Assembly (NCBI RefSeq): GCF_019039055.1
Contig: NZ_JAHOPB010000003.1
Coordinates: 124,001 to 188,000 of the forward strand
DNA: 64,000 bases
From: Reyranella humidisoli
Lineage (GTDB): Bacteria > Pseudomonadota > Alphaproteobacteria > Reyranellales > Reyranellaceae
Reading direction: 5' to 3'
Below, in pieces: positions 11,862 to 46,338 of this stretch. Position 1 is the first letter of the stretch, and each line of letters begins with the position of its first letter. Both the position numbers and the translations under genes were made by a program. The notes beneath the pieces were generated by a model, which had not been told where the DNA came from, made no database searches, and saw only the letters and a program-made list of their open reading frames with translations.

Positions 11862-12998
11862 TCAGACAAGGATCGTATCCGCGACCGACCAGGCGATTTC
11901 CGCCCGCTCGCCGACGGCGCGGCGGCGGATGGCGGCGCTGGACGGCTCCTTGAGCACGATCGAGGTGCCGTCGCCGGCCTGCAGCATGTAGCGGCAGCGC
12001 TCGCCGGCAAAGACTGCTTCGGTGACGGTGACGCTCATCCGGTTCTGCGGTGTCGTTGCAGCCCATGCACTGTCCGCAAATCGCAGGCGCTCCGGCCGGG
12101 TCGTGAGGGTCACCTTCTCGCCGCTAACGGGCCGGCCGGGACACAGGGCGCGGATGAGGGTGCCGTCGCACTCGGCGATGACCACGTCATCCTCCATGCC
12201 GCGCACGACCGCCGGCAGGAAGTTCGATTCGCCGATGAAACCCGCGACGAAGCGATTGTCAGGTCGGTCGTAGAGATCCTCCGGGCGCCCGACTTGCGCC
12301 ACCTTGCCGTCGTTCATGACGGCGATGCGGTCGGACATGGTGAGCGCTTCTTCCTGATCGTGCGTCACGTAGATGAAGGTGATTCCGAGATCAGCATGCA
12401 GGCGGCGCATCTCGAGTTGCAGATTTTCGCGAAGCTGCTTGTCGAGCGCGCCCAGCGGCTCGTCCATAAGCAGCAGGCGCGGCTTGAAGACGACGGCGCG
12501 GGCCACGGCGACACGCTGCTGCTGGCCGCCCGAAAGCTGGCGCGGATAGCGGGCGCCGTAGCCGGGCAGGTGCACCAGCTCCAGCGCTTCCGCCACCAGC
12601 CTGGCCCGCTCGGCCTTCGGCACGCCGCGCTGCTTCAGCGGGAATCCGATATTCTCCTCGACGGTGAGGTGGGGAAAGAGCGCGTAGTTCTGGAACACCA
12701 TGCCGATGTTGCGCCGGTAGGGCGGCATGGCGACGACCGACGTGCCGTCTATGGCGATGTCGCCCGCGGTCGGCGTCTCGAAGCCGGCGATCATCATCAG
12801 GGTGGTGGTCTTGCCCGAGCCGCTGGGGCCGAGAAGCGTCAGGAACTCGCCCGAGCGGATGTCGAGCGAGACGCCATCCACGGCTTTGGCGGCGGCATTG
12901 GCGCGATCGTAGGTCTTCTCCAGGCTGGAGAGCGTCACCGACGCGCCCCGGCCGGACAGAGGATCCGAGCCAGTCCGGCTCGCGCCAGTGCCGTTCAT
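11862..12998 (-). CDS. spermidine/putrescine-type ABC transporter ATPase (PotA-like)
   Basis: 378-residue ATPase with Walker [11 protein letters not shown], signature [16 protein letters not shown], Walker [15 protein letters not shown] and switch His in [12 protein letters not shown]-terminal TOBE-like domain (about 280-375) is the regulatory region of the PotA/FbpC/CysA group. It starts 4 bp after the stop of the binding protein gene and ends 8 bp before the PotB-like start, so expression is coupled. Family members energise import of polyamines, polyols or iron; here the PotB/PotC partners favour the polyamine-like branch. Confidence 0.9.
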
Positions 12999-20563: not shown

Positions 20564-22381
20564 TTACTGCTCGCCGGAGCGGACCTTCACGTAGCTGCCG
20601 GGCGCATCCTCGAGTGCAGGCAATCCACCGGCGCCAGGTACGCGCGCCGGGACCTTCGCGCCCGACAGGGCCGACAGCCACTTGTCCCAGTCGTGCCACC
20701 ACGAGCCCGGGAATTCCTGGGCGCCGGCCTGCCATTCGGCCAGAGTCGGAGGGTTCTTCGCCGTCTCGTTCAGCCAGTGCTGGTACTTCTTGTTGCGCGG
20801 CGGATTGACGACGCCCGCGATGTGACCCGAGCCCGCCAGCATGAAGCGCGCCGGACCGCTGAAGATCTGCGTCGCCTTGTAGACCGAGCGTGCCGGCGCT
20901 ATGTGGTCTTCCTTGCCGGCCTGGATATAGACGGGGATCTGGATCTTGCGCAGGTCGATCGGCACGTTGTCGATGACGATGCCGCCCGGCTGGCTGAGCA
21001 GGTTCTTCTGGTACATGTTGCGCAGGTAGAAGCTGTGCATCGCTGCGGGCATGCGCGTGGCGTCGGCGTTCCAGAACAGCAGGTCGAAGGGGAAGGGGTC
21101 CTTGCCCATCAGGTAGTTGTTCACGACGAACGACCATATGAGATCGTTGGCGCGCAGCATGTTGAAGGTCGTTGCCATCTCGCTGCCTTCGAGATAGCCC
21201 TTCTTGCTCATCATCTCCTCGACGCTGGCGAGCTGGTCCTCGTCGATGAAGACGCCGAGTTCGCCCGGTTCGCTGAAGTCGACCTGGGCGGTGAAGAAGG
21301 TGCAGGCGGCGATGCGGTCGTCGCCGCGCGCGGCCATGTAGGCGAGCGTCGCGGCCATCAGCGTGCCGCCGATGCAGTAGCCGATTGCCGAGACCTTGCG
21401 CGCGCCCGTCGCCTTCTCGATGGCGTCGAGCGCCGCGAGCGGGCCCTGGTTCATATAGTCCTCGAACACCATCTTCGCGAGGCGCTCGTCGGGATTGACC
21501 CAGGAGACCACGAACACCGTGTAGCCCTGTTCGGTCGCCCACTTGATGAACGAGTTCTCGGGCTTGAGGTCGAGGATGTAGAACTTGTTGATCCACGGCG
21601 GCACGATCAGCAACGGCACCTCGTAGACCTCTTCGGTCGCGGGCGCGTACTGGATGAGCTGGATGACGTCGTTCTGGAAGACGACCTTGCCGGGCGAGGT
21701 GGCGACGTTGCCGCCGACCTTGAAGGCATCCATGTCGGTCTGGCGGATGGCGAGGTTGCCCTTGCCGCGCTCGAGATCGCCCAGCAGGTTCTTGAGGCCC
21801 TTGAGAAGGTTCTCGCCCTTGGACTCGACTGTCGCCTTGACGACCTGCGGATTGGTCATGGCGAAGTTCGAGGGCGACACCGCGTCGATGAACTGGCGGG
21901 TGTAGAAGTCCACCTTCTTGGCGGTCTTCTCGTCGACGCCCTCGACTTCCTTGATCGTCCCCTGCAGCCAGCGCGCCGTGAGCAGATAGGACTGCTTCAG
22001 GTAATCGAAGACGACCTCGTCCTTCCAGGCGGGATCGTTGAAGCGCTTGTCGCCGCGCGCGGGCTCCGCCACCGGCTCGACCGTCTGGCCCATCATGCGC
22101 TGGGCCGTGACCTGCCAGAGCTTCATGTACTGCTGCCAGAGTTCGACCTGCGCCTGAACCAGCCGGTTCGGGTCAGCCATCATCTTGGCCGTGAAGTCCA
22201 TGAAGGTCTGGGTGAGGTGCAGCGGATCGGTCGGCTGCGGTCCTTCGGACTGGTACTTCTGGGAAAAATCCTGCAGCAGCTTCTGACTGCGCGTCGCGAT
22301 GTCCTTGAAGGCCTCCTGGAGCTTCGCGGACTCCTCCGGCGACAGGCCGCCAAGGGCCGTGGGGGCGGGCGTGTCGGACAT
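20564..22381 (-). CDS. phaC: class I poly(R)-hydroxyalkanoic acid synthase
   Basis: 605-residue PHA synthase that polymerises (R)-3-hydroxyacyl-CoA into storage granules. The lipase-like box GYCIGG gives nucleophile Cys336; Asp492 (GKEDHIAP) and His520 (GSGHIAGVVNPP) complete the triad. Length and absence of a phaE neighbour indicate class I. ATG 22381 (MSDTPAPTALGG) is chosen with GGAAGGGGAAACGC upstream rather than an in-frame ATG 7 codons earlier. No phaA/phaB/phaZ gene is adjacent. The 199-bp upstream gap has a small GCGGT/ACCGC inverted repeat. A hairpin spans the stop and the gap to the carbonic anhydrase gene. Confidence 0.95.
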   Translation of the reverse strand: MSDTPAPTALGGLSPEESAKLQEAFKDIATRSQKLLQDFSQKYQSEGPQPTDPLHLTQTFMDFTAKMMADPNRLVQAQVELWQQYMKLWQVTAQRMMGQTVEPVAEPARGDKRFNDPAWKDEVVFDYLKQSYLLTARWLQGTIKEVEGVDEKTAKKVDFYTRQFIDAVSPSNFAMTNPQVVKATVESKGENLLKGLKNLLGDLERGKGNLAIRQTDMDAFKVGGNVATSPGKVVFQNDVIQLIQYAPATEEVYEVPLLIVPPWINKFYILDLKPENSFIKWATEQGYTVFVVSWVNPDERLAKMVFEDYMNQGPLAALDAIEKATGARKVSAIGYCIGGTLMAATLAYMAARGDDRIAACTFFTAQVDFSEPGELGVFIDEDQLASVEEMMSKKGYLEGSEMATTFNMLRANDLIWSFVVNNYLMGKDPFPFDLLFWNADATRMPAAMHSFYLRNMYQKNLLSQPGGIVIDNVPIDLRKIQIPVYIQAGKEDHIAPARSVYKATQIFSGPARFMLAGSGHIAGVVNPPRNKKYQHWLNETAKNPPTLAEWQAGAQEFPGSWWHDWDKWLSALSGAKVPARVPGAGGLPALEDAPGSYVKVRSGEQ

Positions 22382-22580
22382 GCGTTTCCCCTTCCGAATC
22401 ATTGCCTTTGCAGCATTTCTTGCGGTAAATTCACCGCTTCGGTGCCATACCTAGTGCAGAACCTACCGGAATCGATACTTGCTTCCCATAGGTAGGCTGC
22501 GACAACTGACGGGTCAAATTTCCTCTCGGTCTCCGCTAGACAGGCGGAGGATACCGGGCTTCAAGCGGACACAGCAGGTG

Positions 22581-29522: not shown

Positions 29523-29893
29523 ACGACTTTGACAGCCCCCGGTACGCGAGCTTCTCCAGGATGACGGGGAGAGCCTTCGAGCCGGATGCTGTTGTGGTCG
29601 ACCGGGACGAGTTTATACGACCACACTTGGTTGGCTCCCGCTGGTGTCTGGGCATCTGCTAGTCGGACTTTTCACGTTCTTGGCGGATACGCCATAGGAC
29701 GTCCCGCCGATCGACGTCGCGTACTACGAGGAAGTCCGCCGCCATCCCTGCCCGCGGTTTCAATTCCGCTGACGGCAATGGGGTCGACGCGAAGGCCTCT
29801 TGATCTGCGTCAAGGTTCCTTGGCCTTTGGGCTATAGCATTAATAAATTCGTAATGTGAGCTGCGGTGCTCACCGCCTTCCGGGAAGAGCTCG
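29523..29893. other. intergenic region after tRNA-Glu
   Basis: About 370 bp without a supported gene. It holds one FNR-like box (29800-29813) and a TATAGC-type -10 (29833-29838) ahead of the DUF2252 gene. I looked for a second copy of the tRNA 3' end as an attachment site and saw none. A short minus-strand frame (29659-29745) reads protein-like but has no supported start. Confidence 0.4.
29800..29813 (+). promoter_or_regulatory. FNR/FixK-like box upstream of DUF2252 gene
   Basis: TTGATCTGCGTCAA matches TTGAT-N4-RTCAA. Its centre lies about 87 bp before the ATG at 29894; a TATAGC sequence about 29 bp downstream of the centre is roughly where a class II activator would want its -10. Confidence 0.65.
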
Positions 29894-32557: not shown

Positions 32558-33763
32558 TCACACGGCAAATGGGGGCTTCTTTGACCAAGGATAACCCTGT
32601 CGTGCCCGCACATAGCCATACTCAAACAGTTTCCGCATATAGCTTTGGTCGAAGGGTGCCGGCGACACGTCATTGAAATCGGTGCCGATGTAGGCAAGGT
32701 TGAAGTCGATGCCATCAGTTCGCGTCGTGTTATACATGCGCACCACATCGTTTATTCCACTGACGGTGATCATGGTGTCGATCGTCCGACCGATGATCCC
32801 CAGGGTCTGTCGCTTGGTGGTCGACCAGTTGGGATCGAGCCTGCCGTTGCGAATGATGTAAGCATCAACGGGAAGGACGCGCTGACGCGCCGCGGCGCGT
32901 TGACGGCGCTGCTGCGTCAGTGAGGGGGGATAGAGGAAGGCTTGGGCGAAAGCGCCGCCGTCCACATGCATCTCCTGATACGGCTTTCCGTCCAGAGTCA
33001 CATCGAACATGGTCGGTGGAAATGCACCTGGGATCGCCGCCGAAGCGAGCAGGATGCGCGCTATGGTGTCCTGCGCGCGCGGATGGCCACTTGCTGCAAT
33101 CGCGCCGATATTCCAGATGACTCCCTGCTGCGAGTCGAGGTCACTCGTGCCGATCAAAAGCAGCCGACCGTCGTTGTAAGCCTTGGCAAGATCAGCGACC
33201 ATCTGCTGGTCAAGGTAACGGGACAGGGTAATGAAGAGTGGCGCATTGTCCGCTAGCGCATCGTCGTTGAGCGCCGCAATCAGTCCGCGCTCCCTCAGGA
33301 CATCCTTAGCCGTGATGTTCGTATATACTTCGCGTAGCTTGGCGTCATAAGCGGTACCAAGGAACGCAAATGGCGCGGTCAGGGCTCCTGTGCTGATGCC
33401 CGTCACCCAGTCGAACACCGGACGGTCGCCGCGTTCGCTCCACCCACACAAAAGGCCGGCCCCGAAAGCCCCATTCTCGCCGCCGCCGGATACCGCCAGC
33501 ATGTTGTACTCCGGCATATCGAACGGGGTCGCCACGCCAAAGAAGCGTCGCCGGCGCTCCGCTGCCTGCAACAACTCGTCCTGAGCGAGCTTCACATCGA
33601 CAATGGGATGGAAACGCTCATTGGCGACGCCGAGCACGGTTGCGTGCGTCGCCTTCGCGCGTGGCACGGCGGGCCCACGTGGAACTTCGCCACAGGCCGA
33701 CAGGCCGATCATCGCTCCGCTTCCGGCTAGTAGCCGGAAGGTGCTTCGACGTGTTTTTGTCAT
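32558..33763 (-). CDS. patatin-like phospholipase, lipoprotein
   Basis: 401 residues from ATG 33763, chosen for AGGGGGCAGG upstream and a clean signal with lipobox LSAC (Cys24). Patatin catalytic elements are all present: oxyanion loop GGGENGAFGAG (93-103), nucleophile Ser124 in GISTG, and Asp268 in VDGGAF. It should be a lipid-anchored serine acyl hydrolase acting on phospholipids or other acyl esters at the envelope. A divergent FNR-like box lies 50 bp upstream (33813-33826). Less GC-rich than the housekeeping flank, like its two neighbours. Confidence 0.85.
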   Translation of the reverse strand: MTKTRRSTFRLLAGSGAMIGLSACGEVPRGPAVPRAKATHATVLGVANERFHPIVDVKLAQDELLQAAERRRRFFGVATPFDMPEYNMLAVSGGGENGAFGAGLLCGWSERGDRPVFDWVTGISTGALTAPFAFLGTAYDAKLREVYTNITAKDVLRERGLIAALNDDALADNAPLFITLSRYLDQQMVADLAKAYNDGRLLLIGTSDLDSQQGVIWNIGAIAASGHPRAQDTIARILLASAAIPGAFPPTMFDVTLDGKPYQEMHVDGGAFAQAFLYPPSLTQQRRQRAAARQRVLPVDAYIIRNGRLDPNWSTTKRQTLGIIGRTIDTMITVSGINDVVRMYNTTRTDGIDFNLAYIGTDFNDVSPAPFDQSYMRKLFEYGYVRARQGYPWSKKPPFAV

Positions 33764-33812
33764 CCTGCCCCCTAGTTTGCGAGACTTCGTAGCTACCACC
33801 GTTGGGGCGGCC

Positions 33813-33826
33813 TTGATCTAGCTCAA
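33813..33826 (-). promoter_or_regulatory. FNR/FixK-like box near patatin-like gene
   Basis: TTGATCTAGCTCAA fits the looser FixK form TTGA-N6-TCAA, with one base off TTGAT-N4-ATCAA. Centre is 56 bp before the patatin-like ATG, which allows a start near 33778 at class II spacing; the -10 there (TACGAA) is weak. Confidence 0.5.
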
Positions 33827-36356: not shown

Positions 36357-37136
36357 ATGTTATCGTGCATGGTGAATGAGATTACGAACTTAGGTCGGCC
36401 GCCGGTTCTTGGAACGTCGCAAAGGACCAAGGCCGCCCTGAGTCTGCCCTGCGACGCCTGTATTGGCAGGACGCTGAATTTGTGCCGGCCGTTGGACGAT
36501 TCGCGCCTGCAGCACATGCTTTCCCTCGGTGGCGTGCGGCACTGGAAGAGGCATGAAACGCTCTTTCGCGCTGGCGATCCGATGGGTGCTTTCTTCAAGA
36601 TCCGCAAAGGCATCGTCGCGGTTTCGCACACGCTCGATGACGGCCGTCGCCAAATCGTGGCCTTGCGCGCGCCCGGTGATTGCGTCGGCTACCTCGACGA
36701 AAATGGTGCGTATGCCTTCGAGGGGGAGGCCCTGACCGACGTGGAGGCCTGCGCCTTCGATCGACGCAAGTTCGATGTCTTTGCCTCACAACACCCGGAC
36801 CTGGCGGCGGCCCTCGCCGAGGCCCTGTCGAGCGCGTTGAAACAGACTGGTGTCCTGACACTTGTACTCGGGCAACTCCGGTCGACGGAGCGGGTGGCGC
36901 ATTTCCTGGCCGCGATCAGCGCGCTCTATGCCGAGCGGCATGTGTCCGCGGCCCAACCCCTGACGCTGCACATGGGGCGGAACGAGATTGCGGACTATCT
37001 CGGCCTCACGATCGAAACCGTCAGCCGGTCGATCGGTAAGCTCAAGAGCCGCAACATCATCGCCCTGGTCGAGAGCGGCGAGGTCGTGATCCTGGATTTC
37101 AATCGACTTCGCGAGGCCGGCAAGGTGACGTCCTAG
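36357..37136 (+). CDS. Crp/Fnr-family oxygen-responsive regulator (FnrN/FixK-like)
   Basis: 259 residues. The N-terminal cysteines C32-x2-C35-x7-C43 plus a core cysteine Cys132 (DVEACAFDRR) match the FnrN/FnrL arrangement for an O2-labile [4Fe-4S] cluster. A cyclic-nucleotide-type beta-roll (about 45-140) and dimer helix (150-185) follow. The C-terminal HTH recognition helix has E220-T-V-S-R224, the E-x-x-S-R signature that reads TTGAT half-sites. The flanking genes carry six such boxes, so it is probably the local activator. No box was seen in its own 55-bp leader; it may be read from the channel operon. Confidence 0.88.
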   Translation: MLSCMVNEITNLGRPPVLGTSQRTKAALSLPCDACIGRTLNLCRPLDDSRLQHMLSLGGVRHWKRHETLFRAGDPMGAFFKIRKGIVAVSHTLDDGRRQIVALRAPGDCVGYLDENGAYAFEGEALTDVEACAFDRRKFDVFASQHPDLAAALAEALSSALKQTGVLTLVLGQLRSTERVAHFLAAISALYAERHVSAAQPLTLHMGRNEIADYLGLTIETVSRSIGKLKSRNIIALVESGEVVILDFNRLREAGKVTS

Positions 37137-37180: not shown

Positions 37181-37194
37181 TTGATTTTGGTCAA
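37181..37194 (+). promoter_or_regulatory. FNR/FixK-like box upstream of Tat-exported protein
   Basis: TTGATTTTGGTCAA, 107 bp before ATG 37302. Good TTGAT-N4-RTCAA match; no clear -10 at class II spacing. Confidence 0.6.
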
Positions 37195-38029: not shown

Positions 38030-38043
38030 TTGACCAAAATCAA
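38030..38043 (+). promoter_or_regulatory. FNR/FixK-like box upstream of PPK2 gene
   Basis: TTGACCAAAATCAA. Centre is 62 bp before ATG 38099; GATAGC at 38064-38069 is 30 bp downstream of the centre and may be the -10. Confidence 0.65.
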
Positions 38044-38098
38044 AGGCTGCATGGATTATCGAGGATAGCCTCTTCCCTTCACACCCATCGAGGTGCGT

Positions 38099-38917
38099 AT
38101 GGCCAAGAAGAATGATGCCGGCACCGGCAATGGTCCGGACAAGTTGAAGCGCAAGGTCTACGAGAAGGAATTGCGCGAGCTGCAGGTCGAGCTTTGCCGC
38201 CTGCAGGAGTGGATCAAGGTCTCCGGCGAGCGCGTGATCATCGTGCTGGAGGGACGCGACGCGGCGGGCAAGGGCGGGACCATCAAGGCCCTGACCGAGC
38301 GTGTCAGCCCGCGGGTGTTCCGCGTCGTCGCGCTGCCGGCGCCGTCCGACCGCGAGAAATCGCAGATGTACGCCCAGCGCTACGCCGAGAAGTTCCCGGC
38401 CGGCGGCGAGATCGTGATCTTCGACCGCAGCTGGTACAACCGCGCCGGCGTCGAATACGTGATGGGCTTCTGTACGCCCGAACAGCACCAGCGCTTCCTC
38501 GAGATCTGCCCTATCTTCGAGAAATTCGTCATCGACGGCGGCATGCGGCTCATCAAGATCTGGCTGGAGGTCGGGCAGGAGGAGCAGGACCGGCGTTTCA
38601 GGGCGCGGATCGAGGATCCCGTGCGCCAGTGGAAGCTGAGCCCGATGGACGTCGAGTCCTACTCACGCTGGTACGACTACTCCCGGGCGCGCGACCTGAT
38701 GTTCCAGTACACCGACTCCGAACACTCGCCTTGGCACATCGTCCATTCAGACGACAAGAAGCGCGCGCGCCTGAACGTGATCGCGCACATCCTGTCGCAG
38801 ATTCCCTACAAGAAGGTCGATCGCGCCAGGGTGAAGCTGCCGTCGCGCTCCGACAAGCGCGCCTACGATGACCGGGCCTCGATCGCCGATCGTCGTTACG
38901 TCTCACAGAAATACTAG
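38099..38917 (+). CDS. ppk2: polyphosphate kinase 2
   Basis: 272-residue single-domain PPK2 that moves phosphate between inorganic polyphosphate and nucleoside di- or triphosphates. Walker A is EGRDAAGKGGTIK (51-63); the Walker B/lid start is IVIFDRSWYNRAGVE (105-119); later KIWLEVGQEEQDRRFRAR and the YDYSRARDLM motif match PPK2. ATG 38099 with GAGGTG upstream is preferred to the GTG two codons earlier. Controlled by its own FNR-like box, implying polyphosphate-driven nucleotide supply when O2 falls (inference). Confidence 0.92.
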   Translation: MAKKNDAGTGNGPDKLKRKVYEKELRELQVELCRLQEWIKVSGERVIIVLEGRDAAGKGGTIKALTERVSPRVFRVVALPAPSDREKSQMYAQRYAEKFPAGGEIVIFDRSWYNRAGVEYVMGFCTPEQHQRFLEICPIFEKFVIDGGMRLIKIWLEVGQEEQDRRFRARIEDPVRQWKLSPMDVESYSRWYDYSRARDLMFQYTDSEHSPWHIVHSDDKKRARLNVIAHILSQIPYKKVDRARVKLPSRSDKRAYDDRASIADRRYVSQKY

Positions 38918-38951
38918 GCGTAAACACTTCATTTCATCCGGGGAGTTGAGG

Positions 38952-39389
38952 ATGTCCAAGCTGCTGAGTGTCAAGGAACTGCACATAAAGCTTGCCGAAG
39001 CGGAGGGCGCCAAGGCGTCGGCTGCGCTGAAGGCTCAGGCGGCGGAAGAGGCCGAGAAGAAGGCCTTCATCGAGCACCTGCTTGCGCCGTCGGGATTGAC
39101 CGACGAGCAGGCAAGCGAGAAGGCCTCGCTCATCATCGGCCGCGCGATGGACAACGGCCTGACTTCCGTCCAGGTGCTGCGCTTCCCCAACCATATCTGT
39201 ACCGACAGCGGCCGGGCGATCAATCAGGTGGAGGAGGGCTGGGAGAAAACGCTCACCGGACTTCCCAAGGAAATCTACGAGTTCTGGAAGCGCAAGCTGC
39301 GGCCGCTCGGCTACCACATCCGCTATCACATCGTCGACTATCCAGGCGGCATGCCGGGCGATGTCGCGATCACGCTGAGCTGGGGATGA
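38952..39389 (+). CDS. conserved-looking protein of unknown function
   Basis: 145 residues, not recognised. The N-terminal third (about 5-45) is an Ala/Glu/Lys-rich helix, likely coiled coil. The rest contains VLRFPNHICTDSGRAINQVEEGWEK and a C-terminal LGYHIRYHIVDYPGGMPGDV strand region, with only one cysteine. No signal peptide. GGGAGTTGAGG lies before ATG 38952. It follows ppk2 by 34 bp and overlaps the next gene, so all three are probably one transcript. Confidence 0.65.
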   Translation: MSKLLSVKELHIKLAEAEGAKASAALKAQAAEEAEKKAFIEHLLAPSGLTDEQASEKASLIIGRAMDNGLTSVQVLRFPNHICTDSGRAINQVEEGWEKTLTGLPKEIYEFWKRKLRPLGYHIRYHIVDYPGGMPGDVAITLSWG

Positions 39390-39793: not shown

Positions 39794-40975
39794 TCAGCCG
39801 CGCAGCGCCGCCCGTGTGTAGCGGGCGATCATGCGTTGCTCGTCGGTCGGCACGACCCAGGCCGATACGGCCGCGCTGTCGACGCTGATGCGGCCGTTGC
39901 CGGCGGCGTTGAGCGCCGGGTCGAGCTTCAGCCCAAGCCAGGCGCAGCCGGCGGATATCTCGGCACGCGTTGCGGGGTCGCGTTCGCCGATGCCGGCAGT
40001 GAAGACGATGCCGTCGACCCCACCCAGCGCGGCCGCGAGCGATCCGATTTCCCGGACGATGCGATAGACGAAAAGGTCGATGGCCTCGCGCGCTTCCGGC
40101 GCCGCCGAGGCGCGCAGGGTGCGCATGTCGGATGAGATGCCCGACACGCCCAGGAGCCCGGACTTGCGATAGAGCAAATCCTCGATGCCTGTGGCGTCGA
40201 GGCCTCGTTCCTTCAGCAGGTAGAGCAGGACCCCCGGATCGAGTGCGCCGGTGCGGGTGCCCATCATCAGCCCGTCGACCGCCGTGAACCCCATGGTGCT
40301 GGCGACGCTGCGACCGTCGCGTACGGCGCACAGGCTGGCGCCATTGCCGAGATGGGCAATGATCAGCCGGGACTTCGCCAGCTCCGGCTGGATCTCCTTC
40401 AGGCGGGCCATGACATAGTCGTAGGACAGGCCGTGGAATCCGTAGCGACGCACGCCGTCCGCGGTCAGTTCGCGCGGCAGGGCGAACTTCTGGGCGAGTG
40501 CCGGTTGGCTGCGATGGAAGGCGGTGTCGAAGCAGGCGATTTGCGGCAGGTGCGGGGTTGCTTTCAGAATCGCCGCGATGGGCGCCAGATTGTGCGGCTG
40601 GTGCAGTGGCGCGAGCGGCACGAGCTTCCGAAGCTCGGTGAGGACGGCTGCGTCGATCCGTGTCGGCGCGGCGTAGGCGGTTCCGCCATGTACGACCCGG
40701 TGGCCGAACGCCAGTACGTGCCGGCCGGACAGCAGCTCGCGCCCTGCGGACATGATCTCATCGGTAGCGCCATGGTGATCGAGCGTACCGTCCCGCCAGT
40801 CCTTCTCGGCGACGAGCGTGCCGTCCGCCTTGAATGCCTGAAGGCGGGGGCTGGTGCCGATGCCTTCGACCTGGCCGTGAAAGAGTTGCGTGCCGTCGTC
40901 ATGGGCATCGTAGATCGCGAACTTGATGCTCGACGAGCCGGCGTTGAGGACGGCAATGCAGCCGATCTTGTCCAT
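39794..40975 (-). CDS. ackA: acetate/propionate/butyrate-type kinase (AckA family)
   Basis: 393 residues forming ATP from acyl-phosphate and ADP. Family marks: IAVLNAGSSSIKFAIYD (phosphate loop), FGHRVVHGG, FDTAFH, LPRELTADGVRRYGFHGLSYDYV, IIAHLGNGASLCAVRDGRSVASTMGFTAVDGLMMGTRTGALDPG, and DGIVFTAGIGE. ATG 40975 is chosen, 10 bp after the enoyl reductase stop; a 14-codon upstream extension overlaps that gene. Last gene of the operon DUF3141-phosphotransacylase-FabI-kinase. Acetate is the default substrate, but the context leaves propionate or butyrate open. Confidence 0.92.
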   Translation of the reverse strand: MDKIGCIAVLNAGSSSIKFAIYDAHDDGTQLFHGQVEGIGTSPRLQAFKADGTLVAEKDWRDGTLDHHGATDEIMSAGRELLSGRHVLAFGHRVVHGGTAYAAPTRIDAAVLTELRKLVPLAPLHQPHNLAPIAAILKATPHLPQIACFDTAFHRSQPALAQKFALPRELTADGVRRYGFHGLSYDYVMARLKEIQPELAKSRLIIAHLGNGASLCAVRDGRSVASTMGFTAVDGLMMGTRTGALDPGVLLYLLKERGLDATGIEDLLYRKSGLLGVSGISSDMRTLRASAAPEAREAIDLFVYRIVREIGSLAAALGGVDGIVFTAGIGERDPATRAEISAGCAWLGLKLDPALNAAGNGRISVDSAAVSAWVVPTDEQRMIARYTRAALRG

Positions 40976-40985
40976 GCCTTGTTCC

Positions 40986-41765
40986 TCAGGCGACGATGTT
41001 CGTGCCGCCATCGACATAGACCGTACCGCCGGTCACGCGCTGCGCGAAGGGAGTGGCGAGATAGGCGCAGGTATAGCCCACGTCCATGATGTCCACGAGC
41101 TCGCCCAGCGGCGCCTTCTTCGCGGCCTCGTTGAGCAGCAGTTCGAAATCCTTGAGGCCCGAGGCGGCACGTGTCTTCAGCGGGCCGGGTGAGATCGCAT
41201 GGACGCGGATGCGCTGGGGCCCGAGCTCGTAGGCGAGATAGCGGCAGGAGGCTTCGAGCGCGGCCTTTACCGGGCCCATGACGTTGTAGTTCGGCACGAC
41301 GCGATTGGCGCCGTAGTAGCTCATGGCGAACATCGTGCCGCCGTCCTTCATCAGCGGTGCGGCGAGGCGCGACATGCGGATGAAGGAATGACAGGAAATG
41401 TCCATCGCCTTGGCGAATCCTTCGGCCGAGCAGTCTAGCAGGCCGCCCTGCAGGTCGTTCATCGGCGCGAATGCGATGGAGTGGACCAGTATGTCGAGCT
41501 GGCCCCATGTTTTGCCGATCCGGTCGAACACCGCTTCGAGCTGCCCCGGTTCGGCGACGTTCAGCTCGGCCGTAATCGGCGCCTCCAGCTCCTGCGCCAG
41601 GGGCTCGACATACTTGCGCGCCTTTTCGTTCAGCCATGTCACGGCGAGATCGGCGCCGGCCTCGCGGAAGGCCTTGGCACAGCCGTAGGCGATGGATTGG
41701 TCGTTGGCGATGCCGACGACCAGGGCCTTCTTGCCGGTGAGGACGGGACGGATCTGCTCGTTCAT
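40986..41765 (-). CDS. fabI: NADH-dependent enoyl-ACP (or enoyl-CoA) reductase FabI
   Basis: 259-residue short-chain reductase with FabI-specific features: GKKALVVGIANDQSIAYGCAK (NAD site), LDILVHSIAFAP, SYYGANRVVPNYNVMGPVKAALE with the catalytic Tyr-x6-Lys, and SPGPLKTRAASGL. It normally reduces trans-2-enoyl-ACP in fatty acid synthesis. Its place between phosphotransacylase and acyl kinase genes is unusual and suggests a dedicated role, perhaps on short enoyl thioesters as an NADH sink. Gaps of 6 and 10 bp to its neighbours show one operon. Confidence 0.9.
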   Translation of the reverse strand: MNEQIRPVLTGKKALVVGIANDQSIAYGCAKAFREAGADLAVTWLNEKARKYVEPLAQELEAPITAELNVAEPGQLEAVFDRIGKTWGQLDILVHSIAFAPMNDLQGGLLDCSAEGFAKAMDISCHSFIRMSRLAAPLMKDGGTMFAMSYYGANRVVPNYNVMGPVKAALEASCRYLAYELGPQRIRVHAISPGPLKTRAASGLKDFELLLNEAAKKAPLGELVDIMDVGYTCAYLATPFAQRVTGGTVYVDGGTNIVA

Positions 41766-41771
41766 GTTTCC

Positions 41772-42725
41772 TCAGGGGATTACGGAAGCTGCACTCGCCC
41801 GTCGCGCCGCAGCGACGAGGCAGGCCACGGCACAGGAGGCGAGACGCGTCGTCACCGAGTCGGCCCGGCTCGTCAGGATGATCGGAACGCGGGCGCCCAG
41901 AACGATGCCCGCGGCATCGGCGCCGGCCAGGAAGGAGAGGCTCTTGGCCAGCATGTTGCCGGCCTCCAGGTCAGGCACGATCAGCACGTCGGCGCGGCCC
42001 GCCACCGGCGAGACGATGTTCTTGATGGCGGCCGCTTCGACGCTGATCGCATTGTCGAGCGCCAGGGGGCCATCGAGGATGCCGCCTTTGATCTGGCCGC
42101 GCTCGGCCATCTTGCACAGCGCCGCGGCATCGATCGTCGAGGCGACCTTGGCACTCACCGTTTCCATGGCGCTCAGGATCGCAACGCGCGGCTGGGTGAC
42201 GTCCAGCGCATGTGCGAGGTCGATGGCGTTCTGGACGATGTCGACCTTGTCTTCCAGAGTCGGCGCGATGTTCACGGCGGCGTCGGAGATGATGAGCGCC
42301 TGGCCGTGGCCGGGCACGTCCATGACGAAGCAATGGCTGATGCGGCGCGCGGTCCGGATGCCGCTCGTCCGCGACACCACGGCACCCATCAGCTCGTCTG
42401 TATGCAGGCTGCCCTTCATCAGCGCCTCGGCGCGCCCGCAGCGCACCAGTTCGACCGCCTTGGCGGCCGAATCGTGACTGTGGGCCGAGTCGACGATCTC
42501 GAAGGATCCGATATCGAGGGATGCCTTGTGCGCGACGTCGAGGATGCGTGCCGACGGTCCGACGAGGATGGGCTTCAGGAGACCGTTGCCGGCTGCCTGT
42601 ACGGCGCTCTCCAGCGAGACCGCGTCGCACGGATGGGCGACGGCGGTCAGCATCGGTGGATGCTTTCGCGCCACGGCAATCAGCCGGTCGTACTTTTCGT
42701 GCGGCTGTGCCGTCAGTGTCGTCAC
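41772..42725 (-). CDS. phosphate acetyl/butyryltransferase (enoyl-CoA hydratase/Pta family, transferase part only)
   Basis: 317-residue phosphotransacylase converting acyl-CoA plus phosphate to acyl-phosphate. Family marks: ALMKGSLHTDELMGAVV, RISHCFVMDVPGHGQALIISDAAVNI, and VLIVPDLEAGNMLAKSLSFLAGADAAGIVLGA. Related proteins often carry an N-terminal MaoC-type hydratase domain; this one does not. Start is GTG 42723-42725 with AGAGAGGAT seven bases upstream. It precedes fabI by 6 bp and follows DUF3141 by 18 bp. Confidence 0.9.
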   Translation of the reverse strand: MTTLTAQPHEKYDRLIAVARKHPPMLTAVAHPCDAVSLESAVQAAGNGLLKPILVGPSARILDVAHKASLDIGSFEIVDSAHSHDSAAKAVELVRCGRAEALMKGSLHTDELMGAVVSRTSGIRTARRISHCFVMDVPGHGQALIISDAAVNIAPTLEDKVDIVQNAIDLAHALDVTQPRVAILSAMETVSAKVASTIDAAALCKMAERGQIKGGILDGPLALDNAISVEAAAIKNIVSPVAGRADVLIVPDLEAGNMLAKSLSFLAGADAAGIVLGARVPIILTSRADSVTTRLASCAVACLVAAARRASAASVIP

Positions 42726-42743
42726 GTCAGATCCTCTCTGTCA

Positions 42744-44894
42744 TCACCGCGAAGGGCGTGCCGCCGCGAAGAGCTGCTGCAGGTGGGCAAGGCGTTCGCG
42801 GCCCTCCGCCGACAGGTCGCCGGAAGCGCCGAGCACCTCCTCGACGACCTGCCACCCGCGTGCCCGTTGATCCGGATCGTCCGGCAGCAGGAACGGGATG
42901 GCCCGCACCGCACGCTCCTCGTCGAGATGCAGCAGCAGGTACTGATCGCGGAACAGCGTCTTCAGCTCGTCGAAGCTCAGGCGCCGGTTCGCAGGCTGCA
43001 TGCGACGCACGGCCTGCAGCACGGAGAAACCGCGCTCGTCGACGGTCCGCTGCGGCAGGCGCACATGCATGATCGAACGGATCACCGCCTCGACGAGACC
43101 GCCGACCTCGAACATCTTCTCGAGATGAGCCCGCCAGTTCGCGGCGATGGCGTCCTGGGCCGGGTCCGTGCCGTGCTTGGCCGGCGCCGTTGTTTCTGCC
43201 GCCAGCCCCACCATCGCCTGGAGGGCCGGGGAGCCGTAGGTGCCGAGGAACATCGCTTCCGTCATGGCATCGCGTGTCAGCCGGTAGGTCTCCCAGCAGG
43301 TCGAGATCCAGGTGGACGCGACCTTCTCCATCGTGTGGAGGGGATTGTCCGGCGAGACCGGCTTGCGGCCGGCACGTACCGCCTCGGCCAGCGGCTTGAC
43401 CGACGCCATGAAGGGATTGCGGTCGGAGAAGGCGGCGAACCGCATCCGGTGCGGATGGGTCTCGCGCAGCATCTTTGCCGATGTCTCGCTCGCCATCGCA
43501 CGGACGACCGGCTGGGCAAACGTCCGGTAGAGGCCAGTGTTGATCTCCGAAACGCGCGCCGCGGCGGCGAATCGCCGGTCGTCTTCCTCGCTGTTCGCAC
43601 CCAGCGCCCGGATGTCGTCGAGAGTGCGCGCTTCCAGGCGAAACAGGTGCTTGCCGTGGATCAGGCCGGGGTTGGCCGTCGTCTCGTCGATCTCCGTGAT
43701 GACCGCCTCGTAGAGGCCGGGCGGCAGCAGGTCAATCATCTCCATGCAGGAGGCGAACTCGGCATGCTCCTTGGTTGCCACCTTGCTCGACACGAAGATG
43801 CCGAGATGGCCGATCGTCTGGTGCAGCGTATAGACGATGGTCTGTCCATTGGCGACGATCTGCTCTTCGTGGTCGTAGAGGTCGGTGACCCAGCCGAGCG
43901 CCTGCTGCGGCGGCGTGATGTTGTCGCCCCAGGAACACAGTACGATGATCGGCGAGCGGATGCTGCGCAGGTCGACGCGGGTACCGTCAGGCGTACGGAT
44001 TTCGCCCCGGGTGAGCTTGTTGCCGACGAACAGATTGTCGGCGATCCACTGCATCTCGACGGCGTTCAGCGTCACCGGGCTGCCCCACCAGGTCTCGAAG
44101 TCGAGGAAGCGCGCGCCCTCGGTGTCGGCCCTGGCGTAGAGATTGTAGGGCTTCTCCCAGTAGGTGTTGGCCGGGTTGAGCGATTCGAAGTTGGCGACGA
44201 GATTGGCGCCGTCGAACGTGCCATGGCCGAGATCACCGGAGAGTGCGGTCAGCCAGGTGCCGCCCAGCGTGCCACCGAGATACCGCATCGGATTGCGGCC
44301 GCGAACGCCCGCCCAGTAGGAGAGCGGCGAGCCGGCCAGCAGGATCGGGCCGAACAGGTCGGGCCGGATGGCGGCCGTCATCATGAGCTGCCAGCCGGCT
44401 TGGCAATTGCCAATCACCACGGGCTTGCCTTCGGCATCCGGATGGCGCGCGGCGACGGCTTCCAGGAACGCCGCTTCGGCGACGCAGACATCGGCGATGG
44501 TCTGTTCCGGCATGGGCTTGGACAGGAAGCCCACGAAGTAGCAGGCGTGCCCGGCGGCGAGGGCGACGCCGATTTCGCTCTCCTGCTTCATGCCGCCGAT
44601 GCCGGGCCCGTGCCCGGCGCGCGGGTCGACGATCACGAAGGGTGGCTTGGCGGGGTCGACGATCGCGCCCTCGGGAGGAACGATGCTGACGAGGACGTAG
44701 TTGACCGGGCGGGGCAGGGTACGCCCGTCCAGCACCACCTCGAAGGCGAAGCCCAGGACGTGCGGTGCATTCTCGGCGGCGCGTTCGACGAACGTGTTGC
44801 CACGCTCACGCAGGATATCGAGCGTGAGGATCGAGCGCTGCCAGGCGTCGATCCAGTATTCCTGGAAGAAATTGAGGCTGGCTTGATCTGCCAT
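42744..44894 (-). CDS. DUF3141 protein, PHA-synthase-like alpha/beta hydrolase
   Basis: 716 residues. The N-terminal 60% is an alpha/beta-hydrolase fold resembling PHA synthases: nucleophile box GNCQAG (Cys164), Asp324 (CSWGDNITPP) and His363 (TIGHLGIFVS), with N-terminal NFFQEYWIDAWQRSILTLDILRERGN and WWGSPVTLNAVEMQWIADNLFVGNKL also PhaC-like. The last ~330 residues are helical and specific to this family, with TTANPGLIHGKHLFRLEAR and a C-terminal LFRDQYLLLHLDEERAVRAIPFLLPDD. Biochemical role is not established to my knowledge. It heads the Pta-FabI-AckA operon and has an FNR-like box at class II spacing. Confidence 0.85.
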   Translation of the reverse strand: MADQASLNFFQEYWIDAWQRSILTLDILRERGNTFVERAAENAPHVLGFAFEVVLDGRTLPRPVNYVLVSIVPPEGAIVDPAKPPFVIVDPRAGHGPGIGGMKQESEIGVALAAGHACYFVGFLSKPMPEQTIADVCVAEAAFLEAVAARHPDAEGKPVVIGNCQAGWQLMMTAAIRPDLFGPILLAGSPLSYWAGVRGRNPMRYLGGTLGGTWLTALSGDLGHGTFDGANLVANFESLNPANTYWEKPYNLYARADTEGARFLDFETWWGSPVTLNAVEMQWIADNLFVGNKLTRGEIRTPDGTRVDLRSIRSPIIVLCSWGDNITPPQQALGWVTDLYDHEEQIVANGQTIVYTLHQTIGHLGIFVSSKVATKEHAEFASCMEMIDLLPPGLYEAVITEIDETTANPGLIHGKHLFRLEARTLDDIRALGANSEEDDRRFAAAARVSEINTGLYRTFAQPVVRAMASETSAKMLRETHPHRMRFAAFSDRNPFMASVKPLAEAVRAGRKPVSPDNPLHTMEKVASTWISTCWETYRLTRDAMTEAMFLGTYGSPALQAMVGLAAETTAPAKHGTDPAQDAIAANWRAHLEKMFEVGGLVEAVIRSIMHVRLPQRTVDERGFSVLQAVRRMQPANRRLSFDELKTLFRDQYLLLHLDEERAVRAIPFLLPDDPDQRARGWQVVEEVLGASGDLSAEGRERLAHLQQLFAAARPSR

Positions 44895-44954: not shown

Positions 44955-44968
44955 TTGACTTTGATCAA
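44955..44968. promoter_or_regulatory. FNR/FixK-like box between DUF3141 operon and MFS gene
   Basis: TTGACTTTGATCAA. Centre is 67 bp upstream of the DUF3141 ATG, allowing a start near 44920 if the protein binds at -41.5. On the other side it is only 11 bp from the MFS ATG at 44980, so it would repress that gene or the MFS gene starts further in (ATG 45025). Confidence 0.7.
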
Positions 44969-44979
44969 ATGAAAGTTCG

Positions 44980-46338
44980 ATGTCGGAACATGCCCTCGCG
45001 CCGCCGAGCCGGGCGCGGCGGCCGATGATCGACGAAATACGACGACTCATTTACGGTCCAGCATCATCAGCTTTTCGGCAGGCGATCATTGCAACGGGGA
45101 ACATGACGGGGTTTCTTCACAATCGCTGGGCCCAGCTTTTCGCCGGCATCGTCTGCATGGTGATGATCTCCAGCCTCCAGCACGGCTGGACGCTGTTCGT
45201 GCACCCGATCAACGAGAAGCACGCCTGGGGACGGGCGGCCATCCAGATCGCCTTCACGGTGTTCATCCTGAGCGAGACCTTGCTGGTGCCGTTCGAGGGC
45301 TGGGTTGTCGACAGGTTCGGTCCCCGCCCGGTGGCGCTCGCGGGCGGCGTGCTGGTGGCCGTCGCGTGGAGCCTGAACTCCGTGGCCGACTCGCTGCCTT
45401 TGCTCTATCTCGGTGCCGCGCTGGGAGGAATCGGCGCGGGCTGCGTCTACGGCACCTGCCTGGGCAGTGCGCTGAAGTGGTTCCCCGACCGCCGGGGCCT
45501 GGCCGCCGGCCTGACCGTCGCGGGCTATGGGATCGGCTCGGCGTTCACCATCATCCCGATGCATCACACGATCGAGCATCACGGCTACGAGGCGGCGTTC
45601 CTCTGGTTCGGCCTGGGACAGGGCGCGATGATCTGCCTCGTGTCCCTGGCGTTGCGCAAGCCGGAGGCGGAGGTCCTGGCGATTCCGGAGCGACTGCCCC
45701 ACGCGGTACACGACCACAAGCCCGGCGAGGTGCTGCGCTCGCCGCTCTTCTGGATCCTGTTCGCGATGTCGCTGCTGGTGACCGCGGCCGGGCTGACCTT
45801 CACCGCCAATCTGGCAGGGATCGCCCGCAGCTTCGGGGTGGCCGACGTGCCCGTCAGCCTGGTGGGTCTCACTTTGCCGGCGCTGACCTTCGCGCTGACG
45901 CTCGACCGCGTCGCGAATGGCATTGCGCGGCCTCTGTGCGGATGGCTCTCGGATTACATCGGGCGCGAGAACACGATGTTCTTCGCCTTCACCCTGGGCG
46001 CGCTCAGCATCCTGGCCTTTGCGCGGTGGGGCAACGAGCCGGTCATGTTCGTGCTGCTCGTCTGCCTGGTCTTCTTCGCCTGGGGCGAGGTGGCGAGCCT
46101 CTTCCCGGCGACCTGCACCGACTATTTCGGGTCCGGTTACGCCACCACCAATGCCGGCATGCTGCACACGGCCAAGGGCTTCGCCGCCATGCTGGTGCCT
46201 CTTGCGGATCCGCTGGTGCGCGCGACGGGCGACTGGCAGCTGGTCTTCGCGCTCGCCGTGGGCGCCAACGCGGTCGCCGCGTTCCTGGGCATCGCCGTCC
46301 TGCGGCCGATGCGGGCGGCCTGGCTGCGGCGCGAGTGA
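44980..46338 (+). CDS. MFS transporter, OxlT-like (oxalate/formate antiporter group)
   Basis: 452-residue major facilitator with 12 predicted helices. After a 35-residue hydrophilic N-terminus comes FLHNRWAQLFAGIVCMVMISSLQHGWTLFVHPI, the conserved start of OxlT-like proteins, then EGWVVDRFGPRPVALAGG (motif A), YGTCLGSALKWFPDRRGLAAGLTVAGYG and GWLSDYIGRENTMF. The family exchanges small carboxylates, so it may export or import fermentation acids made by the neighbouring operon (inference). ATG 44980 has only a weak AAAG ribosome site; ATG 45025 is a real alternative. Confidence 0.85.
   Translation: MSEHALAPPSRARRPMIDEIRRLIYGPASSAFRQAIIATGNMTGFLHNRWAQLFAGIVCMVMISSLQHGWTLFVHPINEKHAWGRAAIQIAFTVFILSETLLVPFEGWVVDRFGPRPVALAGGVLVAVAWSLNSVADSLPLLYLGAALGGIGAGCVYGTCLGSALKWFPDRRGLAAGLTVAGYGIGSAFTIIPMHHTIEHHGYEAAFLWFGLGQGAMICLVSLALRKPEAEVLAIPERLPHAVHDHKPGEVLRSPLFWILFAMSLLVTAAGLTFTANLAGIARSFGVADVPVSLVGLTLPALTFALTLDRVANGIARPLCGWLSDYIGRENTMFFAFTLGALSILAFARWGNEPVMFVLLVCLVFFAWGEVASLFPATCTDYFGSGYATTNAGMLHTAKGFAAMLVPLADPLVRATGDWQLVFALAVGANAVAAFLGIAVLRPMRAAWLRRE

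Follow-up and report, generated by a model that had tools for sequence, protein, structure and literature searches.

What does a DUF3141 protein do at the head of an operon whose other genes encode a phosphotransacylase, a FabI-type enoyl-thioester reductase and an AckA-type kinase? The question is raised by four minus-strand genes of Reyranella humidisoli, located in a stretch of 64,000 nucleotides (hereafter the window; assembly GCF_019039055.1, contig NZ_JAHOPB010000003.1, positions 124,001 to 188,000 of the forward strand). DUF3141 annotations vary: the protein is called polyhydroxyalkanoate (PHA) synthase, often as a mislabel, or poly-3-hydroxybutyrate (PHB) depolymerase, or is left as unknown. 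A reading made from the letters of the window (the sequence-only reading) had proposed a hypoxic branch from acyl-coenzyme A (acyl-CoA) to ATP. The enzyme families give good support to the short-chain acyl-CoA-to-ATP part. The wider proposal is supported in part: comparative genomics, together with expression data from the literature, speaks for low-oxygen control, for the operon working as a single module and for a connection with PHB. We read the four genes as a low-oxygen, PHB-linked acyl-thioester fermentation module, and put the probability of this reading at about one half.

The proposed sequence of events is as follows. When oxygen falls and PHB is present, an FNR/FixK-type regulator would turn the operon on; the DUF3141 protein, acting catabolically, would most likely load CoA with 3-hydroxyacyl (3-hydroxybutyryl) units released from PHB or its oligomers; a hydratase of the PhaJ type, with its gene outside the operon, would form the enoyl thioester; the operon FabI, in which the charge for docking acyl carrier protein (ACP) is lost, would reduce it with NADH; and the Ptb-like phosphotransacylase, by phosphorolysis, and then the AckA-like kinase would convert acyl-CoA to acid and ATP. 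The direct evidence is at the level of the genes, and from it we infer the substrates, the direction, the order of steps and the product (butyrate or 3-hydroxybutyrate); possible products are 3-hydroxybutyrate, butyrate, propionate and acetate.

Conservation and control of the gene set

DUF3141 was followed through 117 loci obtained by whole-genome and named-genome searches, 37 of them from an evenly drawn phylum sample. All four genes stand together at 52 of these loci (21/37 in the even sample), ordered DUF3141-PTA-FabI-AckA (25 loci), DUF3141-PTA-AckA-FabI (12 loci) or FabI-DUF3141-PTA-AckA (5 loci), with divergent forms and DUF3141-AckA-PTA-FabI as further arrangements. That the set is kept while its order shuffles is best explained by a shared function, and the four-gene set is not a chance array: it is conserved and regulated, with many soil bacteria retaining it behind a predicted oxygen-responsive switch, and its pieces are known separately. 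In a single case, a metagenome-assembled genome (L125), DUF3141 and PTA share one frame of 1136 amino acids with a lysine/alanine-rich linker. Burkholderiaceae DUF3141 proteins (L124, L125, L127, near 12060-12420) carry a lysine/alanine-rich, histone-H1-like tail that recalls PHB-granule and nucleoid proteins. Stop codons break the DUF3141 frames at G166:C5:14081-15736 and G209:C41:40030-41647, where PTA, FabI and AckA are not nearby. On pSymA of Sinorhizobium meliloti ml56, ackA (L170, 13138-14290) is split over two frames, either by a frameshift or by a sequencing error confined to this strain; the copies in Rm41 and S. medicae are intact.

The FNR-like box that the sequence-only reading had placed ahead of the operon was recovered as TTGATCAAAGTCAA, one mismatch from TTGATNNNNATCAA. 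With up to one mismatch allowed, the window contains seven FNR-type boxes where 0.69 would be expected, a count reached by no shuffle. Five of the seven fall in the interval from 29.8 to 45 kb, among them one ahead of the polyphosphate kinase gene PPK2 and one ahead of the operon, and with several such boxes this part of the window has the look of an island of low-oxygen genes. Further FNR-type boxes are found at 29800, before a DUF2252 gene (29894), at 33813, by a patatin gene (32558-33799), and at 37181, before an open reading frame of 151 amino acids (37235). The CRP/FNR-family regulator encoded nearby is likely the oxygen sensor acting on these boxes, the roles of its cysteines being assigned by analogy with FNR.

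Across the gathered loci, the 300 bp upstream of DUF3141 were searched with at most one mismatch allowed (chance per locus about 1% or less, from shuffles). A box was present at 25 of the 63 loci linked to PTA/AckA versus 3 of the 52 others (p = 2e-5, uncorrected for relatedness). Among close relatives the flanks have diverged around a box that is kept together with the ~18 bases following it; in Rhodobacter CZR27 and on pNGR234b of NGR234, too, the operon has boxes in front of it. By its promoter box, kept in relatives, the operon is a predicted FNR/FixK target. Stand-alone MaoC genes were likewise searched for nearby boxes with at most one mismatch, and none was seen. Scans for sigma-70 promoters and terminators gave matches not above chance.

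A candidate PhaR-type, TGC-rich stretch follows immediately past the FNR box, and PhaR is encoded in the genome. In Bradyrhizobium diazoefficiens, blr3456-blr3459 (pta, blr3457; ackA, blr3458) are repressed ~7-fold by PhaR in microoxia and have predicted PhaR motifs upstream; the authors read the operon as acetate metabolism (PMC10888616). Gene order in Bradyrhizobium-like genomes of our sample suggests that blr3456 is DUF3141. In NGR234 bacteroids, ackA (NGR_b13640) and pta (NGR_b13630) are up 118- to 228-fold (PMC3732241). DUF3141-PTA-AckA-FabI is found at ~1.36 Mb of pNGR234b, a position that would make it the operon bearing these locus tags. An orfA-pta-ackA operon of S. meliloti, described in 1999, is reportedly under PhoB control.

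The encoded enzymes and the PHB genes of the genome

The DUF3141 protein matches PF11339 over its full length (E 4.5e-267, profile 1-577/582). The PhaC-like hydrolase of 716 residues with an intact C164/D324/H363 triad, as it was described from the letters, holds up: each of the three residues is invariant in 114/114 homologues, the most distant of them aligned at 37% identity, and the catalytic box is GNCQAG or ANCQAG in 108/114. In the AlphaFold (AF2) model (pLDDT 89, pTM 0.90) the three residues follow strands of the alpha/beta-hydrolase core, and each of the top 14 Foldseek matches in PDB is a PHA synthase (best E 1.9e-8; alignments spanning about half the protein). With a PHA synthase the protein shares the Cys-Asp-His triad and, by prediction, the PhaC-like fold of the catalytic domain; the helical C-terminal ~300 residues are without a known counterpart in this analysis. 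Family membership fails on both sides: PhaC_N (PF07167) is absent and TIGR01838 gives 22 bits versus a cut-off of 623, and for PhaZ, PF06850 is absent in the Pfam scan and hhalign to a PhaZ gives a probability of 1%. Within that hhalign alignment (overall probability 1%) C, D and H line up with their PhaZ counterparts, GHxGIF included.

A protein of Halomonas TD01 has been named PhaC2 (PMC3227634), and with PhaC2 of Halomonas O-1 (box GNCQAG) PHA was not obtained in Escherichia coli (PMC8686332). TD01 PhaC2 has a lysR neighbour, as do the surveyed Halomonas DUF3141 loci, and DUF3141 is likely the same protein as Halomonas 'PhaC2'. Because membership in PhaC fails and O-1 PhaC2 gave no PHA, we infer that DUF3141 is a catabolic acyl-transferring or hydrolysing enzyme and not a synthase.

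The operon FabIs (n = 60) form one clade (support 0.90) holding 0 of 31 housekeeping FabIs. Tyr156 and Lys163 are kept in 60/60, and family scores are those of FabI; the ACP-docking surface is different. At E. coli position 204, Asp or Glu occurs in 56/60 operon FabIs versus Arg or Lys in 30/31 housekeeping enzymes (Glu in the window); Arg218 is likewise lost, and the net charge of residues 198-222 moves from +1.8 (housekeeping) to -2.1 (operon). Arg204 of E. coli FabI we take to be an ACP-docking residue, from work on the FabI-ACP complex (entry 2FHS). With this basic docking residue absent and the charge lost or reversed, the operon FabI probably does not act on ACP, which is new support for the earlier suggestion that it reduces a short enoyl thioester as an NADH sink. 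The clade is probably outside fatty-acid synthesis, which matters for annotation; two other FabI paralogues (45% and 40%) are encoded in the genome.

By sequence, the phosphotransacylase is nearer to phosphotransbutyrylase than to classical Pta (P_butyryltrans 306 bits vs pta 83 bits), and its closest solved relative is 7vg9, a phosphate butyryltransferase; the phosphotransbutyrylase equivalog TIGR02706 was scored at 306.5 bits, below its cut-off of 410.5. It is the only stand-alone Pta of the genome, the other PTA_PTB domains sitting in malic enzymes. The operon lacks a hydratase, as had been said of it; in ~9 relatives a PhaJ-like hotdog domain, closest to (R)-specific enoyl-CoA hydratase, is fused to the N-terminus of Pta. 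AckA is likewise the only one of the genome (sole PF00871 match) and has the TIGR00016 score and the catalytic His/Arg/Asp motifs of an acetate kinase. In its pocket the equivalents of Val93, Leu122 and Phe179 are kept; Pro232, present in 5/5 aligned solved acetate and propionate kinases, is Ala in 52/57 operon kinases, the one of the window among them.

PhaC, PhaZ, PhaR and an intact PhaJ (outside the operon, SGDxNPIH intact) are encoded in the genome, the phaC noted earlier lying inside the window itself. Finding phaC counts for little by itself: among alphaproteobacteria, PhaC is nearly as frequent in those lacking DUF3141 (30/33) as in those with it (34/34; p = 0.11).

Weighing the explanations

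Fermentation accounts for all four genes most simply. Several observations weigh against it: DUF3141 occurs without the other three genes nearby at 45/117 loci; FNR boxes are absent upstream of DUF3141 in Sphingomonas, Caulobacter and Burkholderiales members; the co-occurrence with PhaC, considered as support, was rejected as not discriminating; and two PF06850 depolymerase homologues are present in the genome, so that mobilising PHB does not in itself require DUF3141. Nor would the acidic residues around the entrance of FabI favour CoA binding, docking to a basic partner protein being a possibility. AckA retains the Val93 equivalent typical of acetate kinases. In every fusion with a readable motif, the catalytic Asp of the PhaJ-like domain is Asn, and its His is often Asn or Met; because of the altered Asp these domains may bind rather than hydrate, and the fused MaoC domain as an easy answer to the missing hydratase is weakened. 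Biochemistry of the operon's DUF3141 or FabI was not found in the openly licensed literature. A more specific form of the fermentation reading, in which PHB serves as internal electron acceptor in hypoxia (DUF3141 thiolysing it, a non-ACP FabI consuming NADH to reduce the resulting enoyl thioester, and Ptb/AckA yielding one ATP per C4 unit with butyrate excreted), is tentative and on balance improbable.

Plain hypoxic overflow to acetate or propionate, with Pta/AckA working on acetyl-CoA or on phosphoketolase acetyl phosphate and with DUF3141 and FabI as unrelated lipid or thioester housekeeping, agrees with the kept Val93 equivalent, with a phosphoketolase nearby on S. meliloti pSymA and with the acetate-metabolism reading of the Bradyrhizobium authors; it is nevertheless unlikely, as the lost ACP patch makes ordinary fatty-acid synthesis by FabI improbable, the four genes stay linked through rearrangement, the Pta is Ptb-like and a DUF3141-Pta fusion exists. 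Buk and Ptb accept 3-hydroxybutyrate, and a more direct route would run the engineered Buk-Ptb-PHA synthase pathway in reverse: DUF3141 would thiolyse PHB to 3-hydroxybutyryl-CoA, Ptb/AckA would release 3-hydroxybutyrate and ATP, and FabI would be a side branch for NADH disposal. Such a route makes the hydratase unnecessary and suits the Ptb-like Pta and the Pro232-to-Ala change, which could admit a larger acid, but it leaves unexplained the consistent retention of FabI across 60 loci and the PhaJ-like fusion, and we regard it as rather doubtful. Least probable is an anabolic use, in which AckA and Ptb would activate organic acids to acyl-CoA and DUF3141 would polymerise 3-hydroxyacyl-CoA as a divergent PHA synthase; the PhaC fold as nearest solved relative, the PhaC-like box GNCQAG and the PhaC2 name in TD01 speak for it, while the O-1 result and the missing PhaC_N domain tell against it, and FNR control together with a reductase in the operon suits catabolism better.

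If the fermentation reading is true, PHB in rhizobia and soil alphaproteobacteria would also serve as a fermentable electron sink and a source of ATP when oxygen is scarce, with a bearing on the long-standing question of its role in microoxic cells and bacteroids; if PHB is in addition the internal electron acceptor, fermentation of a storage polymer would be widespread in supposed aerobes, nodule bacteroids included.

Neighbouring genes and known systems

The layout given earlier (four minus-strand genes with gaps of 18, 6 and 10 bp) proved exact when the coordinates were rechecked. An alternative upstream ATG at 41017 would make AckA overlap FabI.

Table 1 Features of the window discussed in the text. 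Positions are those of the window; bit scores are given with the cut-off of the respective family.
Feature	Position	Strand	Remarks
DUF3141 protein (PF11339), 716 amino acids	42744-44894	minus	Cys-Asp-His alpha/beta hydrolase, PhaC/PhaZ superfamily; extra helical C-terminal region of ~300 residues
Phosphotransacylase, Pta/Ptb family	41772-42725	minus	NF008852/NF006045 above cut-off
FabI-type enoyl-thioester reductase, separate clade	40986-41765	minus	NF005717, 451.7 bits (cut-off 337)
AckA-type acyl kinase	39794-40975	minus	TIGR00016, 352.8 bits (cut-off 293.4)
FNR/FixK-type box, predicted	44955-44968		TTGATCAAAGTCAA (minus-strand reading); 60 bp ahead of DUF3141 ATG
CRP/FNR-family regulator	36357-37136	plus	FNR-like cysteines C32, C35, C43, C132
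PPK2 polyphosphate kinase	38093-38917	plus	TIGR03707, 356 bits (cut-off 301.8); own FNR box
FNR-type box, predicted	38030-38043		TTGACCAAAATCAA; upstream of PPK2
MFS transporter, oxalate/formate-antiporter family	44980-46338	plus	TIGR04259, 550 bits (cut-off 335); divergent, intergenic region common with operon
PHA synthase PhaC, canonical	20564-22402	minus	PF07167, E 1.7e-78; outside operon

PPK2 recurs beside the operon (26 loci). Directly after it, at 38868-39389 (plus), lies a gene for a protein kept in 30 surveyed loci and without a match in Pfam/NCBIfam. The MFS transporter stands beside the operon in 5 surveyed loci and, being present in few relatives, is probably accessory. Another genome of the genus has a pyruvate-formate-lyase-like gene beside the operon (L062, 5300-7564, minus); as a source of acetyl-CoA here, pyruvate formate-lyase was rejected, the genome of the window, unlike L062, having no such gene. 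The surroundings of the operon on S. meliloti pSymA (L170, 1372-1632 and 17784-22079) include genes for a CBS-domain protein and a phosphoketolase as well as adhP and ccoS (cbb3 oxidase assembly).

A description of the whole pathway was not found in the openly licensed literature, outside of which most subscription journals fall. What is new comprises a FabI clade that probably works off ACP, a changed kinase pocket, the domain fusions, the conservation of the box and the probable equivalence of DUF3141 and the inactive 'PhaC2' of Halomonas.

Four known systems come close. Clostridial Ptb-Buk likewise leads from acyl-CoA through acyl phosphate to acid and ATP, and the operon Pta is closest to Ptb; the operon kinase, however, is of the AckA and not the Buk type, a FabI-like reductase takes the place of Bcd/Etf, and the genes here are accompanied by DUF3141 and an FNR box. 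Halomonas 'PhaC2' (TD01, O-1) shares with DUF3141 the box GNCQAG, the LysR neighbour and the large size, but stands alone near topA/lysR, without pta, fabI and ackA. In Cobetia marina and Halomonas SF2003 the synteny phaC1-fabI-bi-pta-ackA has been reported (PMC8686332); there FabI, MaoC-Pta and AckA adjoin a PHA gene, PhaC1 being a canonical synthase, whereas here DUF3141 stands in that place and Pta has no MaoC domain. The operons of Bradyrhizobium diazoefficiens (blr3456-blr3459) and pNGR234b encode the same enzymes and show microoxic, PhaR-linked or bacteroid expression; they differ in their order, DUF3141-pta-ackA-fabI, and in an assigned function of acetate metabolism only.

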